The notes under the pieces were generated by a model. That model ran no database searches. It was not told where the DNA came from and saw only the letters and a program-made list of their open reading frames with translations. From Azonexus sp. (lineage in GTDB: Bacteria; Pseudomonadota; Gammaproteobacteria; Burkholderiales; Rhodocyclaceae): a DNA stretch of 64,000 bases. A program made the position numbers and the translations under genes. Every line of letters starts with the position of its first letter. Position 1 is the stretch's first letter. The stretch lies in assembly GCA_030691385.1 (NCBI GenBank), contig JAUYEI010000007.1, forward strand, positions 1 through 64,000. Direction: 5' to 3'. Below are positions 21,440 through 50,802 of this stretch, piece by piece.

Positions 21440-22335
21440 GGCTTTGCTATCTCTGCGGTAGCGGGGGCTAGCACCAGCACATCGCAATCGGCCGCATTGG
21501 TCACATCCTTGGCAACGCTGCCGAGCAGAAACTCCTGCATGCCGCTCTTGCCGCTGCGGCCCAGGACGATGAGTTCGGCGCGCAACGATGCGGCGCGCTC
21601 GACAATCGCGGCGGCCGGATAGCCCGCCGTGACATGGCGAGCGCAGACGCCTTCAGGCTGCGTGGCTTGCAGCCGGGTTTCCGCTTCCGCCAGGGCGCGA
21701 CGGCGGTAATCCTCGGCGAACGCCGCATCCAGGCCGGCCTGGCGCATCCGCTCGGCGATGGCTGTGTCGCAGACGTGCAGCAGCTCGATACGCGCATCCG
21801 GCGCGACCGCTCGGCACAGCGCCGGCATCGCCGCGAATCCGGGCGAGAAATCCAGCGCGACGAGGGCGTCGCGATAAGGCCCCTGCTGCGTCTGGAGCTT
21901 GACGATCAAGACCGGGCAGGTCGTCGTCCGCAGCACCCGCGCGGTGGTGGAACCGAGCAGCAGATCAAGCAGGCTGTTCTCGCCGCGCGCCCCCGCCACC
22001 ACCAGACCGGCCTCGACCACGCGCGCATAATCGGCGATTTGACTGTGGGCCCGGCCGATACGGGAGGCAGCGTGAGTCCTGATGCCGAATTGCGCTTGCA
22101 GCGTAGCCGCCAGAGCTTCCAGCCGGGTGCGCGCACCCTTGGCTGCAGCTTCGTCGTTGCAGGTGGCATCGGCCGGCCGGATGTCAGGGCCTGGATAGAG
22201 TGCCAGGGGATGCACCACGTGCAGCAGATGCAATTCGGCATGACATGCCTTGGCGATCAGGGCGGCACGGCGCACGGCCCGGCCAGCGGGGACGGAAAAA
22301 TCGGTGGCGGCGACGATGCAATGGACGGGAGTCAT
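21436..22335 (-). CDS. Tandem universal stress protein (UspA)
   Basis: CIVAATDFSVPAGRAVRRA ... VGARGENSLLDLLLGSTTARVLRTTTCPVLIV; probable start 22335. Confidence 0.9.
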   Translation of the reverse strand: MTPVHCIVAATDFSVPAGRAVRRAALIAKACHAELHLLHVVHPLALYPGPDIRPADATCNDEAAAKGARTRLEALAATLQAQFGIRTHAASRIGRAHSQIADYARVVEAGLVVAGARGENSLLDLLLGSTTARVLRTTTCPVLIVKLQTQQGPYRDALVALDFSPGFAAMPALCRAVAPDARIELLHVCDTAIAERMRQAGLDAAFAEDYRRRALAEAETRLQATQPEGVCARHVTAGYPAAAIVERAASLRAELIVLGRSGKSGMQEFLLGSVAKDVTNAADCDVLVLAPATAEIAKP

Positions 22336-22579
22336 AATCCTTGAAACCTCAGTTGGACGTGGCAGATGGTGCGCCTGGGCGGGATGGCCGGCGCGAAGCG
22401 ACGACGCAGCAGACTCATGCCTGCAAGGAGAAGCGACAAAACCGGGCGCCCGACCAGGCGTGCCAGCGGCCATGTAGCGCTGTCAGCCAAGGGGTGAATC
22501 GCCTCGAAGGCGCAAAGGCCTGTATTCATGCGGCTGGCCAAGGCTGGATAAGCGGTCAACTGAGGTTTCAAGGATAATG
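22333..22579. repeat. 23-bp inverted repeat pair flanking 201 bp
   Basis: cataatccttgaaacctcagttg (22333-22355) vs caactgaggtttcaaggataatg (22557-22579), 22/23 identical as inverted repeats. Confidence 0.85.
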
Positions 22580-22613
22580 TCTCTTTGGTTTGATTGCGGG
22601 TTCGGCAAATCGC

Positions 22614-33543: not shown

Positions 33544-33564
33544 GGGGCTGGTTTCCATTCAATC

Positions 33565-33790
33565 GGCTTGGGGTTCCGCCTTGTTGGCGGGCGTACTTTC
33601 TTCTTGCTTCGCCAAGAAGAAAGTAGCCAAAGAAGAAGGCGACCCTGGGTCGGTGCCGGCTGCGCCGGTTCCCTGCGCTACTCGTGACTGGCGGGGGCTG
33701 CGGAACTCGGGCTTCGCCCTCAGACAGTCCTCGCCCTTTTCCCGCCAGCCCCTGCGTTGCTCGGCACCTCTCAAGGGGCCCGCTGAAACG
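33565..33790 (+). repeat. Repeat unit A, inverted with respect to 33900-34120
   Basis: ggcttggggttccgccttgttggcgggcgtactttcttcttgcttcgccaagaagaaagtagccaaagaagaaggcgaccc... Confidence 0.85.
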
Positions 33791-33821
33791 AGCCGTACTT
33801 GAGCTTGCGTGCCTGAATGGC

Positions 33822-33865
33822 AGATTTCATTTTTGGACTTTTTTTCCGGTTGACCGTGGGAATCG
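33822..33865 (+). repeat. Dispersed repeat copy between inverted repeats A and B
   Basis: agatttcatttttggactttttttccggttgaccgtgggaatcg. Confidence 0.88.
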
Positions 33866-33899
33866 CTTTTTTGGGCACACCGGCTTAGCGTGGACGCTT

Positions 33900-34120
33900 T
33901 TCGGGTCCCCGTGGAAGGCGCTGAGCAACGCAGGACGGCCGGGGGCAGTCGGCTGGCGTTGTTTGAGCCGAAGGCGAGTTTAGCCAGCCGCCCGGCGTTC
34001 CGAGTAGCGCAAGGAACCGGCAAAGCCGGCGCCGCCCTCGGGGTCGCCTTTTCTTTGGCTACTTTCTTTTGGCGAAGCAAAAGAAAGTACGCCCGCCAGC
34101 AAGGCGGAACCCCAAGCCAA
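33900..34120 (-). repeat. Repeat unit B, inverted copy of 33565-33790
   Basis: ...ggggtcgccttttctttggctactttcttttggcgaagcaaaagaaagtacgcccgccagcaaggcggaaccccaagcc. Confidence 0.85.
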
Positions 34121-34141
34121 TTAAAAAGGAAATCCCCCACC

Positions 34142-40882: not shown

Positions 40883-42067
40883 TCAAACCTCCGTCGATTC
40901 GGTGGCTTTGCTGCCTTCCTTCTTGGCCTTTTCCATTTCCTCGGCCCGGTGCGACAGGCCGAGATTTTTCGCCATCATCGCCCCGGCCCCGGCGGCGGCA
41001 CCGGCCACGGCGGCCAGCACGGCAGCCGAACCAAGCGTTGCGCCGACGCCCTTTTCCTCGACGATGCGCGGCAGGAAGGCGGAAGGTTCAATGTTCTTCA
41101 GCTTGGCCATGCTATGGATCGGTTTCTGGAAACCGACACCCTGCTCGGTACAACCAATGCACGGGTGGCCACAGGCGACTGGCCAGGTGCCGGCGCCGGC
41201 ATCGCCGAACATGATCACCGAACAATTGGCGTAGGTTTCCGGCCCCTTGCAGCCCAGCTTGTACAGGCAGTGGCCCTTGCGGTGGCCGTCGTCGCCGAAT
41301 TCCATGGCGAAGCGGCCGGCGTCGAAGTGGGCGCGGCGCTCGCAGTTTTCGTGGATCAGCCGGGAGTAGGCGAATTTCGGCCGGCCCAGATGGTCGACTG
41401 CGGGCAGCGCGCCAAAGGTCAGGAAATGGACGACCGTGGACAGGAAGTTGTACGGGTTGGGCGGACAGCCGGGGATGGTCACCACCGGCTTGCCGAGCAC
41501 CTTGTCCACGCCCTTGGCGCCGGTCGGATTCGGATCGGTCGACGGCATGCCGCCCCACGAGGCGCAGGAGCCGATGGCGATTACCGCCGCCGCATCGGCC
41601 GCACACTCCTTGAGCAGTTCAATTGCCGTCTTGCCGCCGATCTTGCAGTAGATGCCGTTGTCGCGGGTCGGAATCGCCCCTTCGACGACCAGGATGTACT
41701 TGCCCTTGTTTTCGGCCATCGCCGTCTTGCGCGCTGCCTCGACCTGATGGCCGGCCGCTGCGAACAGCGTCTCGTGGTAGTCGAGCGAAATGACGTCGAG
41801 GATCAGCTTCTCCAGCGTCGGATGCTCGGCGCGCAGGATCGACTCGGTGCACCCGGTGCATTCCTGGAAATGCAGCCAGATCACACTCGGCCGGCGCTTG
41901 GTCGCCACTGCCTCGGCGACCGCGGCATCCGCCCCTTGCGGCAGGCCCAGTGTCGTCGCCAGCGCGGCGCAGAATTGCAGGAACTCGCGCCGGCTCATCG
42001 ACAAGCGCGCGGCCGCAGCCTCGATACGGTCGTCCTGTTCCAGCGAAATCAGATTTTGGTTGGCCAT
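40883..42067 (-). CDS. hybO: [NiFe] hydrogenase small subunit (HybO-like)
   Basis: Tat SRREFLQF; proximal-cluster ECTGCTES (standard type). Confidence 0.93.
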   Translation of the reverse strand: MANQNLISLEQDDRIEAAAARLSMSRREFLQFCAALATTLGLPQGADAAVAEAVATKRRPSVIWLHFQECTGCTESILRAEHPTLEKLILDVISLDYHETLFAAAGHQVEAARKTAMAENKGKYILVVEGAIPTRDNGIYCKIGGKTAIELLKECAADAAAVIAIGSCASWGGMPSTDPNPTGAKGVDKVLGKPVVTIPGCPPNPYNFLSTVVHFLTFGALPAVDHLGRPKFAYSRLIHENCERRAHFDAGRFAMEFGDDGHRKGHCLYKLGCKGPETYANCSVIMFGDAGAGTWPVACGHPCIGCTEQGVGFQKPIHSMAKLKNIEPSAFLPRIVEEKGVGATLGSAAVLAAVAGAAAGAGAMMAKNLGLSHRAEEMEKAKKEGSKATESTEV

Positions 42068-42169
42068 TTGTCTCCCCCTTTTTATTCGACATCGGCCAAT
42101 GACGGCCAACACCTTGTCTCTGCTGGGAAGCGGCGTGTATTAGAAAATAGTTTTATTCGTTGTAATGTA

Positions 42170-42184
42170 GCAACAAGCGGGCCA
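42170..42184 (-). promoter_or_regulatory. Candidate sigma54 promoter for hybO
   Basis: Minus strand TGGCCC-gcttg-TTGCTA, about 105 bp upstream of hybO. Confidence 0.5.
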
Positions 42185-42309
42185 GATTTTAAAAACCATT
42201 TGATCCATAGACTTATGCAAATCAAGCAGTCGACATGGAAAAGGAAAAGCCACAATCAGTTTCCACTTGCGCAGACAAGGTGATCAGAAGCTTGTCAGGC
42301 CAATGAACT

Positions 42310-42471
42310 AGTACTCCGTTCCGTCAATGAGCTTGGAAATGAAATTGCTGCATTCGCGTGCCAGGCTAGGCGCAAACCGCAGCCATAGCCGTAGCTATGG
42401 CGAGGATTTGCAACGACGCATGGCGGGCGAAGGCGCGATTTCATGTAAGCGGTTTGGCGGAACGGAGTACT
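42310..42471. repeat. 162-bp near-palindromic MITE-like element
   Basis: Terminal AGTACTCCGTTCCG/CGGAACGGAGTACT and central CCATAGC-CGTA-GCTATGG with aligning internal arms. Confidence 0.88.
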
Positions 42472-42473
42472 GG

Positions 42474-44783
42474 TCACCCGGGCAAAACGGACTGGCGGGC
42501 GACCCAAGCCTGCCCCAGGGCCAGGCCGCCATCGTTGGGCGGCGCTTGGCGGGCTTCGAGCGGATCAATGCCGACGGCGTTGAAGTGGCTGCGTAACGCT
42601 GTCATGAGCACGGTGTTCATTGCACAACCGCCGCCGATGGCTATTTTTGCACCTTTCAATTTTGGCGCTTTTTTCCGGTTGACCGTGGAAACCACCCATT
42701 CGGCCAAGCCGGCCGCCACGGTGGCGTGGAACAGCGCCGCGCCGTGGGCCGCATCGTCCTTGCAGCCCATCAGAGCCGGCAACATTGGGGAAAAATCGAG
42801 GACCGTGCCGTCTTCGAGCAAGGCATAACCGTCGGGCAATGGATCGACCGGACCGTATTTGGCGGCCAGGCCTTCGAGTTCCATCGCGGCCTGTCCTTCG
42901 TACTGCATCAGATCGCGCACACCGAGCAGGCCGGCCGCGGCGTCGAACCAGCGGCCGAGGCTGGTCGTCGGCGGGCAGCGCAGATTGCGGGCGAGCATGG
43001 TGAGCAGCGGGCCGGGGTCGCGCGTCGGGTAATACTGCTTGATCCAGCCGCCGACGCGATAGCCGAGGCCGGCGTCGTGCAGGGCGGAGACGGCCATGCG
43101 CCACGGCTCTTTGGCCGCGCGGTCGCCGCCGGGCATGGCCAGCGGGCTGAGGTGGCCGAGGCGTTCGCAGTTTGCACCATCGAGGCGGAGCAGTTCGCCG
43201 CCCCAGGCGCCGCCGTCCGGGCCGAGGCCGACGCCATCGAGTGCCAGCCCGATAATCGGCTCGTTGATGCCATGTTCGGCGCAAATGGCGGCGAGATGGG
43301 CCTGGTGGTGGCCGACGGTGATGGCCGGAATGCCGAGTTTTTCGGCCAGGCGCACGGCCAGATGGGTGGACGGGAAATCGGGATGCAGGTCGTGGGCAAT
43401 CAGGTCGGGCCGGACGTCGAGGATGGTCAGCAGGTGACTGACCGTCTCTTCGAGAAAACCAATGGCGGCAACATTGTCGAGGCCGCCGATGTGCTGCGAC
43501 AGGAAGGCTTCCCGGTTTTTCATGATGCAAATGGTGTTCTTCAGGTAGCCGCCGAGCGCCAGCACGGCCGGGCCGTCGTCGGCCAAGGGAATCGGCAGCG
43601 GCACGTAGCCGCGGGCGCGGCGCAAGAAAATCGTGGTCTGTCCCCGGTTTTTCCGAACGACCGAATCGTCGCAGCGGATGATGATGTCGCGGTCGTGCAG
43701 CAGGTAGGCGTCGGCAATGCCGGCCAGGCGTTCAAGCGCTTCGGCGTTGGCGATGACCAGCGGTTCGCCGTGCGGGTTGGCGCTGGTCATGACCAGCAAC
43801 AGATCGCTTGGCGCCTTGAGCCAGTCGGTGCCGGCCGGGCGCCCGGCGGCTTCGTGCCAGAGCAAGAGGTGCAGCGGCGTGGCCGGCAGCATGGCGCCGA
43901 GCCAGGCGAGGCCGGGGGCGATTCCTTTCAGTTCGGCGTCGGCCTTGGGGCAGAGCACGATGGGCGCGGCGACGCTGTGCAGCGGGGCCAGTTCGGTCTC
44001 ACCAATCCGCGCATATTCGGCCAGCGAAGCGGCGTTGAGGCCCATCACGGCGAAGGGCTTTTCCTCGCGCTGCTTGCGTTCGCGCAGTTCGGCGACGGCC
44101 GTTGAATTACGCGCATCGCAGGCGAGGTGGAAGCCGCCGAGACCCTTGATGGCGACGATTTTGCCGTCGCGCAGCAGGCGCAGGGTTTCCGTGATGGAGT
44201 CGCCGGCCAGTGGCTGTCCGTCAGCCGAAAGCAGGCGCAGTTGCGGGCCGCAGTCCGGGCAGCAGGTGGTTTCGGCGTGAAAACGACGGTTGGCCGGGGT
44301 GTGGTATTCGTCGCTGCACGGCGTGCACAGCGGGTAGGCGGCGAGGCTGGTTTGCGCCCGGTCGTAGGGAATGCCACGGCTGACCGTGTAGCGCGGGCCG
44401 CAGTGCGTGCAGGTGGTGAAGGCGTAGCGCCAGCGCCGGCTGGCCGGGTCGCAGATGTCGGCGATGCACTCGGGACAGATGGCAGCGTCGGGGCCGATGG
44501 CGGTTTTGACTTCGCCCGGTTCGCTGTCGAGGATGACGAAGCCGTCGCCAACCACCTCTGCCGCTTCGTCCTCGATGGCGTCGATGCGCGCCAGACGCGG
44601 CGCTTCCAGCGGCAAACGGGATTTGAATTTTGGCCAATTTTTCCCGTTGACCGTGGCAATCACCCCGGCGCCGTCGTTGCGCACCCAGCCGGTCAGCCCG
44701 AGTTCATTGGCCAGCCGCCAGACGTAGGGCCGAAAGCCGACGCCCTGGACCAGACCGCGAATGCGGAACAGGCGGCCGGTCAT
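42474..44783 (-). CDS. hypF: HypF carbamoyltransferase
   Basis: Acylphosphatase domain [19 protein letters not shown]; zinc fingers; LRRARGYVP. Confidence 0.95.
42654..42694 (+). repeat. Dispersed repeat copy inside hypF (C-terminal part)
   Basis: tttcaattttggcgcttttttccggttgaccgtggaaacca; encodes [13 protein letters not shown]. Confidence 0.88.
43624..43654 (+). repeat. REP-like ggggacagaccacg motif inside hypF
   Basis: Minus strand AAAAACCGGGGACAGACCACGATTTTC encodes KNRGQTTIF before the conserved LRRARGYVP. Confidence 0.5.
44620..44663 (+). repeat. Dispersed repeat copy inside hypF (N-terminal part)
   Basis: gatttgaattttggccaatttttcccgttgaccgtggcaatcac; encodes [13 protein letters not shown]. 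Confidence 0.82.
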
Positions 44784-48663: not shown

Positions 48664-49118
48664 GCGCAGGCTCCTTGCGTGCTGGCGGCGCGGACGGGGA
48701 TGCCGATCGGCTTCGGTTGGGTCGGCCCGGTGAGCAGGCGGGCGACTTCGTTCTGGTATTCGCTCCAGTCGCGGATGCCGTTGAGGACGCCGACGAAAGC
48801 GCCATCGCGCAGGAAGACGACGGCCGGGGCGCGCGGCACGCCGTATTGCTGCATCAGCGGCGCGGAGAATTCGGGGCCGGCGACCCAGCGGGCGATCTGC
48901 CCGGCGACCGGCTTGAGGGCTTCGGGCAGGATGACGCAGGCATCGAGCACTTCAAGATTGCGCTGCGGGTCTTCGGTGAGGAGCAGGGCGGTCAGACCGG
49001 CCGGGAATTCGGGATCGCTACGGTCAACCGGAAAAAAGCCGTGTTTTTGCAAAAGGCGAGCGATGGCTGTTTCAAGTCTTTCGAGCGAGGTCGGGCCGGC
49101 TTTGAGTTCGAGGCTCAT
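48660..49118 (-). CDS. hupG: HupG/HyaE/HoxO thioredoxin-like chaperone
   Basis: Position and YGVPRAPAVVFLRDGAFVGVLNGIRDWSEY. Confidence 0.85.
   Translation of the reverse strand: MSLELKAGPTSLERLETAIARLLQKHGFFPVDRSDPEFPAGLTALLLTEDPQRNLEVLDACVILPEALKPVAGQIARWVAGPEFSAPLMQQYGVPRAPAVVFLRDGAFVGVLNGIRDWSEYQNEVARLLTGPTQPKPIGIPVRAASTQGACA
49013..49042 (-). repeat. Dispersed repeat partial copy inside hupG
   Basis: gatcgctacggtcaaccggaaaaaagccgt; encodes GFFPVDRSD (opposite reading strand). Confidence 0.75.
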
Positions 49119-49417
49119 GATTGTTGTGTCCTCAGAAATTCGGGAAGTTGGGGTTCGCGATCAAGATCGGCGAAGAAGGCAGAAAAATCGGTGGCGCCGG
49201 ATTGCGCGGCTTCGAGCGCATTGAGGGCGGCATCGATGGCGGCGGCGCGTTCGCTGTCGATCACCTCGCGCGCCGCGTCGAGAAAAGTCATGAGCCAGGT
49301 GCCCGGCTCTTGCTGGCCGACCAGGCTGAGATCGACCCGAACTTCGCCGTTGCGGCCGGCGCAGCGGGCGAAATGTTCGCCGCATTCGAGCACCTGGACG
49401 GGGATGCCGAGGCACAT
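49115..49417 (-). CDS. hupF: HupF/HoxL (HypC family)
   Basis: MCLGIPVQVLECGEHFARCAG. Confidence 0.88.
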   Translation of the reverse strand: MCLGIPVQVLECGEHFARCAGRNGEVRVDLSLVGQQEPGTWLMTFLDAAREVIDSERAAAIDAALNALEAAQSGATDFSAFFADLDREPQLPEFLRTQQS

Positions 49418-49418
49418 G

Positions 49419-50033
49419 TCAGGCAGTTTCCATATTCAGAAAGCGCGCATCGCCGAGGCGATAAGCCACTTCTGCCGGCGGCCGTTCGGACTCATAAACA
49501 TCCATCGCGAGCGCGCTGTCGGTGATGCTCTCGCTCTGCCCGTCACGCACCCGGCCCGCCGCGCCCCATTTTTCCAGCCAGTCGAGCGCGAGGTTGAGGG
49601 CCGGCACCATCTGCGCCTTGACGACATCGCGCAGGCTGCCGCCAAAATCTTCGAGTTGCTCGGCCTGAACGCCAACGAGGACGAGCTCGGCGGGCAATTT
49701 TTGTGTCAGTTCGGCCGCCATCAGCACTTCCTGAAAGCCGGTCTGGTGCAGACTCATTTTCTTGACGCCCATGAAGCGCGGCACCTGGTCGCCGACCACG
49801 ACGCGCAACTGGCCGGGCTCGTCGCCGTAATCGACGGCGTCGAAAACCAGCAGGCAATCGGCCTCCTGGACGTAGGGCAACAGGTAAAGGCCTTGCGTGC
49901 CGCCGTCCATCACGGTGACCTGTGGCGGGAATTCCCAGCCGGCGTTGAGCGCCTCGGCACAGCGCACGCCGAAACCTTCGTCAGCCCACAGGATGTTGCC
50001 GATGCCGAGGACCAGTATGCGTTTTGAAGTCAT
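49419..50033 (-). CDS. hupD: Hydrogenase maturation endopeptidase HupD/HoxM
   Basis: VLGIGNILWADEGFGVRCAEAL. Confidence 0.93.
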   Translation of the reverse strand: MTSKRILVLGIGNILWADEGFGVRCAEALNAGWEFPPQVTVMDGGTQGLYLLPYVQEADCLLVFDAVDYGDEPGQLRVVVGDQVPRFMGVKKMSLHQTGFQEVLMAAELTQKLPAELVLVGVQAEQLEDFGGSLRDVVKAQMVPALNLALDWLEKWGAAGRVRDGQSESITDSALAMDVYESERPPAEVAYRLGDARFLNMETA

Positions 50034-50097
50034 TGTTACCACCTGAAAAAGTGCCCCGGGGTACGGCTGTACGCCGGGGCGAACGCAAGTTGAAGCC

Positions 50098-50802
50098 TCA
50101 GTCCTTGAACATCCGCCAGCCACTGATCATCGTCGAAATCAGCGACTGCCGGCTCATGATGTCCTCGCGGATCGCCGCGTAGACATGCACCAGCACGAAA
50201 GTCATCATGATCCACATGCCCAGCCGGTGCAGGTTATGCACCTGCATCGAGCCGCCGAGGGCCGGAATGACCCAGCCGAACAGGCTGTCCTGCCAGCTCC
50301 CCAGCCCGGCGCCTTCGCTGTACAGCGCGAAGCCGGTGAACACCATGCCGACGGCCAGGATCGTGAAGAAAAAGAACATCATGAGCTGCGCCATCGGATT
50401 GTGGCCGACGTACTTTTTCGGCGTCTTTTCGAGGAACAGATACCAGCGCAGCTCGAAGAAGACTTCGCTCCACCACTGCGCATTGGTGATCGGCAGCCGG
50501 AAGATCTGCTTGGCGTGGTGATTGCCGACGAAGGCCCAGTAAACCCGGCCAAGCAGGCCGACAGCAAAGATGTAGGCCGCCGCGAAATGGGCGAAGCGGA
50601 TGTAGCCCATGAGGAAGTTGTCCGACGCTTCGCCGGGCATCGTCGGCAAGGGCTTGCCGATGAAATACCCGGTCACCGCCAGCACCACCATGGCCAGGGC
50701 GTTGATCCAGTGCCACAGGCGGACCGGCGCTTCGTAGACGTAGATCGAACGGACTTGTTTACCGTGCCGTTCGGCTTCCAGCATGTCCTGTTGAGAGAGC
50801 AT
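50098..50802 (-). CDS. hupC: Hydrogenase cytochrome b subunit HupC/HoxZ
   Basis: YEAPVRLWHWINALAMVVLAVTGYFIGKPLP. Confidence 0.93.
   Translation of the reverse strand: MLSQQDMLEAERHGKQVRSIYVYEAPVRLWHWINALAMVVLAVTGYFIGKPLPTMPGEASDNFLMGYIRFAHFAAAYIFAVGLLGRVYWAFVGNHHAKQIFRLPITNAQWWSEVFFELRWYLFLEKTPKKYVGHNPMAQLMMFFFFTILAVGMVFTGFALYSEGAGLGSWQDSLFGWVIPALGGSMQVHNLHRLGMWIMMTFVLVHVYAAIREDIMSRQSLISTMISGWRMFKD

Follow-up and report, generated by a model that had tools for sequence, protein, structure and literature searches.

A palindromic MITE beside hypF with IS630-like ends and an interior core shared with MITEs of other ends

A near-palindrome lies exactly between hypF and a hydrogenase operon that is read from the same strand. 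Does it serve these two operons, or is it a mobile element whose presence there needs no such service? The initial annotation combined both answers, taking it for a MITE that acts as terminator or insulator. We analysed the element within the window, that is, the whole 64,000-bp stretch of DNA to which all coordinates refer unless a contig or locus is named, and in related genomes.

The element and its insertion site

The near-palindrome occupies 42310-42471 (162 bp), exactly as first annotated. Its outer 14 bp are perfectly inverted (AGTACTCCGTTCCG at 42310-42323 pairs with CGGAACGGAGTACT at 42458-42471), and alignment of the element with its own reverse complement scores 184, compared with a mean of 55 (sd 11, maximum 104) for 500 shuffles. 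Folding of 42308-42473 predicts a nearly unbroken hairpin of about 160 nt in RNA of either strand (plus strand, -99.3 kcal/mol, z -11.1; minus strand, -82.1 kcal/mol, z -9.1). No Rfam family scores above its gathering score anywhere in the window. The initial annotation was also right that the element contains no transposase gene, that it starts 2 bp past the hypF stop codon (TGA at 42474-42476, minus strand) and that it lies upstream of the hydrogenase promoter, for which a sigma-54-type match is found; given the position of this match, the element leaves the promoter uninterrupted. The features are as follows.

42474-44783, minus strand: hypF, from the open reading frame list, with the gene name from the initial annotation and the sequence
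42470-42473: right end CTGG, a mutated CTAG with the TA duplication (the copy on contig C76 has CTAG there)
42446-42471, minus strand: right terminal inverted repeat and subterminal segment, corresponding to the left end of an IS630 element
42364-42422, plus strand: core hairpin GGCTAGGCGCAAACCGCAGCCATAGCCGTAGCTATGGCGAGGATTTGCAACGACGCATG, common to MITEs with different ends (covariance models R1 and R2; covariation)
42311-42470: MITE proper, 160 bp on the assumption of a TA target duplication (empty sites and the IS630 element of locus L063)
42310-42335, plus strand: left terminal inverted repeat and subterminal segment, corresponding to the right end of the IS630 element
42308-42311: left CTAG, with the target TA at 42309-42310 (CTAG is at both ends of the C76 copy)
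42184-42169, minus strand: sigma-54-type promoter match TGGCCCG-N4-TTGCT of the hydrogenase operon, the only strict match in the window
40883-42112, minus strand: hydrogenase small-subunit gene, first of the downstream operon, from the open reading frame list

The genome to which the window belongs (3.45 Mb in 129 contigs) was searched for other copies, as the initial annotation had proposed. One more full copy, which shows 5 differences over 166 bp, lies on contig C76, and there are two right-end fragments (C75:9877 and C106:3001). At least six other genomes have copies: full-length relatives are present in G142, G178 and G187 (87-91%) and in G408, G426 and G319 (85-91%). Nearly all copies start with (C)TAGTA and finish with its mirror image. 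Both flanking CTAGs are intact in the C76 copy; in the window copy the right one has mutated to CTGG.

Empty sites were found for both full copies. At the C76 site, the filled sequence CAAGGCAACTAG..element..CTAGGGAG corresponds to the orthologous empty site CAGGGGAACTAGGG in G319, G438 and G403, and to versions with small changes in G400 (CTGGGGAACTAGGG) and, similarly, in G439. The TAG of this site is the stop codon of an SCO1-like gene, and it was rebuilt after insertion because the element supplies a G after TA. At the hypF site, G438 has GACTAATCA where the element sits here; in context, G438 reads CAGACCAATTGACTAATCA and this genome CAGGCCAATGAACTA..element..CTGGTCA. The window copy is absent from all 13 orthologous hypF-hydrogenase intergenic regions (13/13).

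The palindrome is a MITE: it is short and geneless, has dispersed copies, is flanked by a target duplication and is missing from empty sites. The empty sites show that insertion was precise, and they place it, as read from the sequences, at a TA inside CTAG. That TA is the duplicated unit is known for the IS630 family; the sequence alone fits CTAG equally. That the palindrome arose by chance, or is native intergenic sequence in decay, has a negligible probability, being ruled out by the shuffle tests, the further copies and the empty sites.

The window holds other repeats. One is palindromic, at 22329-22583 (255 bp, ends AATCCTTGAAACCTCAGTTGACC), with copies on C106 (locus L081) and C75, which adjoin the right-end fragments of the present MITE and cut them short. 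Another, at 33558-34125, is a 568-bp nested inverted repeat with arms of 45 nt (93%), 84 nt (76%) and 31 nt (81%).

Parent insertion sequence and CTAG targeting

When 399 genomes from the family were scanned for the end pattern, paired ends turned up at MITE spacing only, together with one outward end in G333, which lies 12 bp past the stop codon of an IS630-family transposase gene. The G333 transposase protein was used to reach an intact IS630 element in G024 (L063, 1463-2715), which is 1253 bp long, has a frame of 394 codons and encodes a transposase matching NF033545 (E 1.6e-59). Over about 30 bp each of its ends matches the opposite end of the MITE, left to right and right to left; in comparison with the MITE of G187, the matched pairing of ends gives 54 and 60 and the crossed pairing 45 and 48. 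An insertion sequence of the parent type, with the same ends as the initial annotation had envisaged, exists in another genome of the family (L063). None was found in the own genome, whose only candidate, a truncated IS630 remnant on C106 that is about 31-33% identical to the parent-type transposase, was rejected. The cognate transposase was likewise absent from seven of the seven MITE-bearing genomes examined, some of them drafts, so that the MITE is, as far as the drafts show, an orphan in its genomes.

The rejected remnant, a truncated IS630-type transposase at 1086-1670 of L081, lies between copies of the 255-bp palindromic repeat. Single end-pattern matches at L051 and L053 have no adjoining IS630 transposase, and are probably chance matches since a reversed control pattern also yields a few.

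From the matching ends and the target we infer that the ends of the MITE derive from an insertion sequence of the IS630 family (Tc1/mariner-like), and that a transposase of this type, acting in trans, would have put the MITE at a TA within CTAG at the 3' end of hypF; the insertion event itself is shown by the empty sites. The first base of the element, the G after TA, also rebuilds a TAG stop codon on insertion, as in the C76 copy.

Such targeting bears on the position of the element. In the loci that surround related elements CTAG is depleted about 15-fold (0.21 per kb, where 3.2 would be expected), and 96 of 194 background CTAGs are in-frame stop codons of open reading frames of at least 60 codons. 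An in-frame stop codon of such a frame is present at an end of 26 of the 47 CTAG-bounded elements; a stop-codon preference beyond CTAG targeting was rejected, as this is no excess over background (P 0.52). These MITEs therefore gather at gene ends because CTAG is rare and about half of CTAGs are stop codons, and the position at the end of hypF, which matches this background, needs no function to explain it. CTAG targeting is a simple reason for gene-end siting that is easily mistaken for a terminator function.

Effects on neighbouring genes

The hairpin is very stable on both strands and sits exactly between two operons of the same strand, as would suit a terminator or insulator retained for that role between hypF and the hydrogenase operon. 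The analysis supports neither role: no T-tract follows the hairpin, and no terminator-like site was found in 41900-42900. Relatives without the element cope; they have the same gene order, and the closer ones also keep the sigma-54-type promoter. As the gene-end siting, too, equals that of background CTAG sites, we consider retention for either role very improbable.

An effect on RNA is less remote. Read-through RNA from hypF would carry the almost continuous 160-nt hairpin, as would RNA from the other strand, and by analogy with the Correia elements of Neisseria (PMC2649163, PMC10969869), which can bind IHF and RNase III (PMC2649163), this hairpin could be cut by RNase III or could protect the 3' end from exonucleases. 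A probable relationship between the core of the element and the Correia core (below) points the same way. The argument is one from precedent, and that the element acts mainly in this manner is a speculative and rather doubtful proposal. Such an effect on RNA would in any case be a side effect, and is no competitor of the MITE reading.

Near the main hydrogenase cluster, at 49115-50123, the window has more hydrogenase maturation genes (a hypC-like frame and a maturation-protease-like frame).

The shared core and its relation to known repeats

The interior of the element is also found within palindromes bounded by other ends. The window core, an imperfect hairpin of about 59 nt, scores 85.6 bits with covariance model R1 and 82.5 bits with R2. 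In the own genome, ten cores of this type lie in palindromic elements with four kinds of ends: CTAGTACTCCGTTCCG, the ends of the window element (2), CTAGTGGTCTGCTTCG-like (5), GTGCGGTGTTGCATGCTAT-like (2) and AGAGCCTGTGAATTTTTTG (1). A scan of named genomes with a core pattern found at least 120 stretches. Judged by their titles, nearly all of the 80 stretches listed are from Betaproteobacteria, the genera among them including Acidovorax, Extensimonas, Tibeticola, Ramlibacter, Comamonas, Simplicispira, Polaromonas, Aromatoleum, Formivibrio and others; a related end type is held, among these listed matches, by Aromatoleum and Formivibrio, which suggests that the window, too, comes from a betaproteobacterium. 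A crude cut sorts 65 of the listed elements, those whose ends are clear, into 17 clusters. Length is nearly constant: in the 47 CTAG-bounded cases it is 165-169 bp, measured from one CTAG to the other. With model R1, 29 of 276 genomes from the class contain the core; with R2, 56 of 398 genomes sampled across the phylum do (41 genera), often in many copies. No core was found in phage records. An IS5-family element on a plasmid of Polaromonas sp. JS666 matches one end type, TAGGGCAACGCTGAATAAGT, at both termini. A search of viral contigs for a full insertion sequence with the other end types gave nothing useful.

Several related sequences are set down here as observations. The IS5-type end also has a match on an IncP plasmid, near an IS1071 tnpA gene. 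In other Pseudomonadota, elements of about 265-277 bp (L452-L455) have two inverted cores each, and L471 belongs to this size class as judged by its inverted-repeat span only. Core copies at L282, L264, L317 and L329 have inner palindromes of 117-121 bp (GCGCGCCCGGGCGGG...), with no outer ends resolved.

In 104 aligned cores 96.4% of cells pair, and both sides have changed in 13 of 15 pairs. The covariation score is 0.331, against 0.091 for shuffles and at most 0.050 for slid partners; the margin is large, even allowing for the bias towards the structure that comes from fitting the alignment to the model. Palindromes undergo arm-to-arm correction by themselves during replication, and the covariation can reflect either this process or selection for the fold. 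Some unpaired letters are conserved as well (GCAG / GCGA, AAGGCG and GCAACG), beyond what correction alone explains, which suggests that they are recognised by a protein or form a specific fold.

How did one core come to lie between different ends? It might be mobile, or recombine, as a small module of its own and so get into MITEs already present, instead of going back to a single ancestor whose ends were exchanged. The presence of the same core in IS630-ended and IS5-ended MITEs, and the paired inverted cores of some elements of 265-277 bp, would fit such a module. The core is nonetheless central in elements of near-constant length (the 47 CTAG-bounded cases), the arm segments that flank it fall into few shared classes, and no core was seen standing alone between sharp borders. 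Constant length and shared arm classes are better explained by descent, or by recombination of whole MITEs, than by repeated insertion, and we regard a core that enters MITEs as unlikely.

On the evidence of the shared cores, one old MITE lineage most likely swapped its ends, and thus its transposase, several times, its core being kept by selection or by arm-to-arm correction; at hypF the element would be a tolerated insertion. Joined with the preceding sections this gives the reading that we favour, at a probability of about 0.87: an IS630-ended MITE of an end-exchanging core lineage inserted at a CTAG by hypF and was tolerated there. A further proposal is that the core of about 59 nt is a conserved functional module (folded RNA, single-stranded DNA or protein-binding site) spread by MITEs of unrelated transposases, with Correia elements as one branch. 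It would cover the repeated changes of ends across Pseudomonadota, for IS630 and IS5 at least, and we offer it tentatively, at somewhat less than even odds.

The element itself is an ordinary MITE; the notable result is a group whose members have the interior, rather than the ends, in common. Bacterial MITEs are usually taken as deletion remnants of one insertion sequence and grouped by their ends, with the interior ignored. Here conservation lies in the interior, with ends that differ, over many genera and two transposase families. Should the core have an activity, such as binding a host factor, influencing RNA decay or aiding transposition, this would explain the persistence of such small elements. 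A search of literature drawn largely from outside the subscription journals found no earlier description of the core or of MITEs that share an interior.

Among known systems, ERIC and REP/BIME sequences are also short palindromic intergenic repeats able to fold in RNA. According to the literature, REPs need RAYT transposases and are not delimited by terminal inverted repeats and a target duplication. With insertion sequences of the IS630 family and their MITEs the element shares matching termini on both sides, a TA target within CTAG and a lack of coding capacity; its interior differs in bearing no trace of a transposase, consisting instead of the conserved hairpin core seen with other ends. 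The IS5-type MITEs of Betaproteobacteria (ends TAGGGCAACGCTGAATAAGT) share this core and the length of about 167 bp, but their ends match an IS5 element, of a transposase family other than the IS630 of the MITE studied here.

The Correia elements (CREE) are the remaining comparison. They are of similar size (106 or 155 bp) and palindromic, with a TA target and a conserved core. The likeness of the cores had been noticed before it was tested on elements from viral contigs retrieved by their published end (PMC5039591; 102,657 bases). Model R2 gave 11 matches in these Correia-bearing contigs, 10 of which are Correia elements, at weak scores (best E about 0.001), and none of 20,000 Markov-shuffled sequences reached the half-motif score. 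With a plain sequence profile built from the strict cores, Correia matched only at E 0.08, and the broader covariance model was needed. R2 aligns to the Correia elements over positions 1-59, with the halves AAGGCG..GAA.CCGCAG and GGCAACGCYG in like order. In view of the low scores, and of a hypothesis that predated its test, we grade the relation as probable and distant. Correia elements differ in their own 26-bp ends (TATAGTGGATTAA...; PMC5039591), which are not on the element studied here (ends CTAGTACTCCGTTCCG), in a longer or different loop, and in that their cognate transposase, or any mobiliser, is not known (PMC2649163). If the relation is true, Correia elements, described as restricted to Neisseria (PMC2649163), gain relatives in environmental bacteria.
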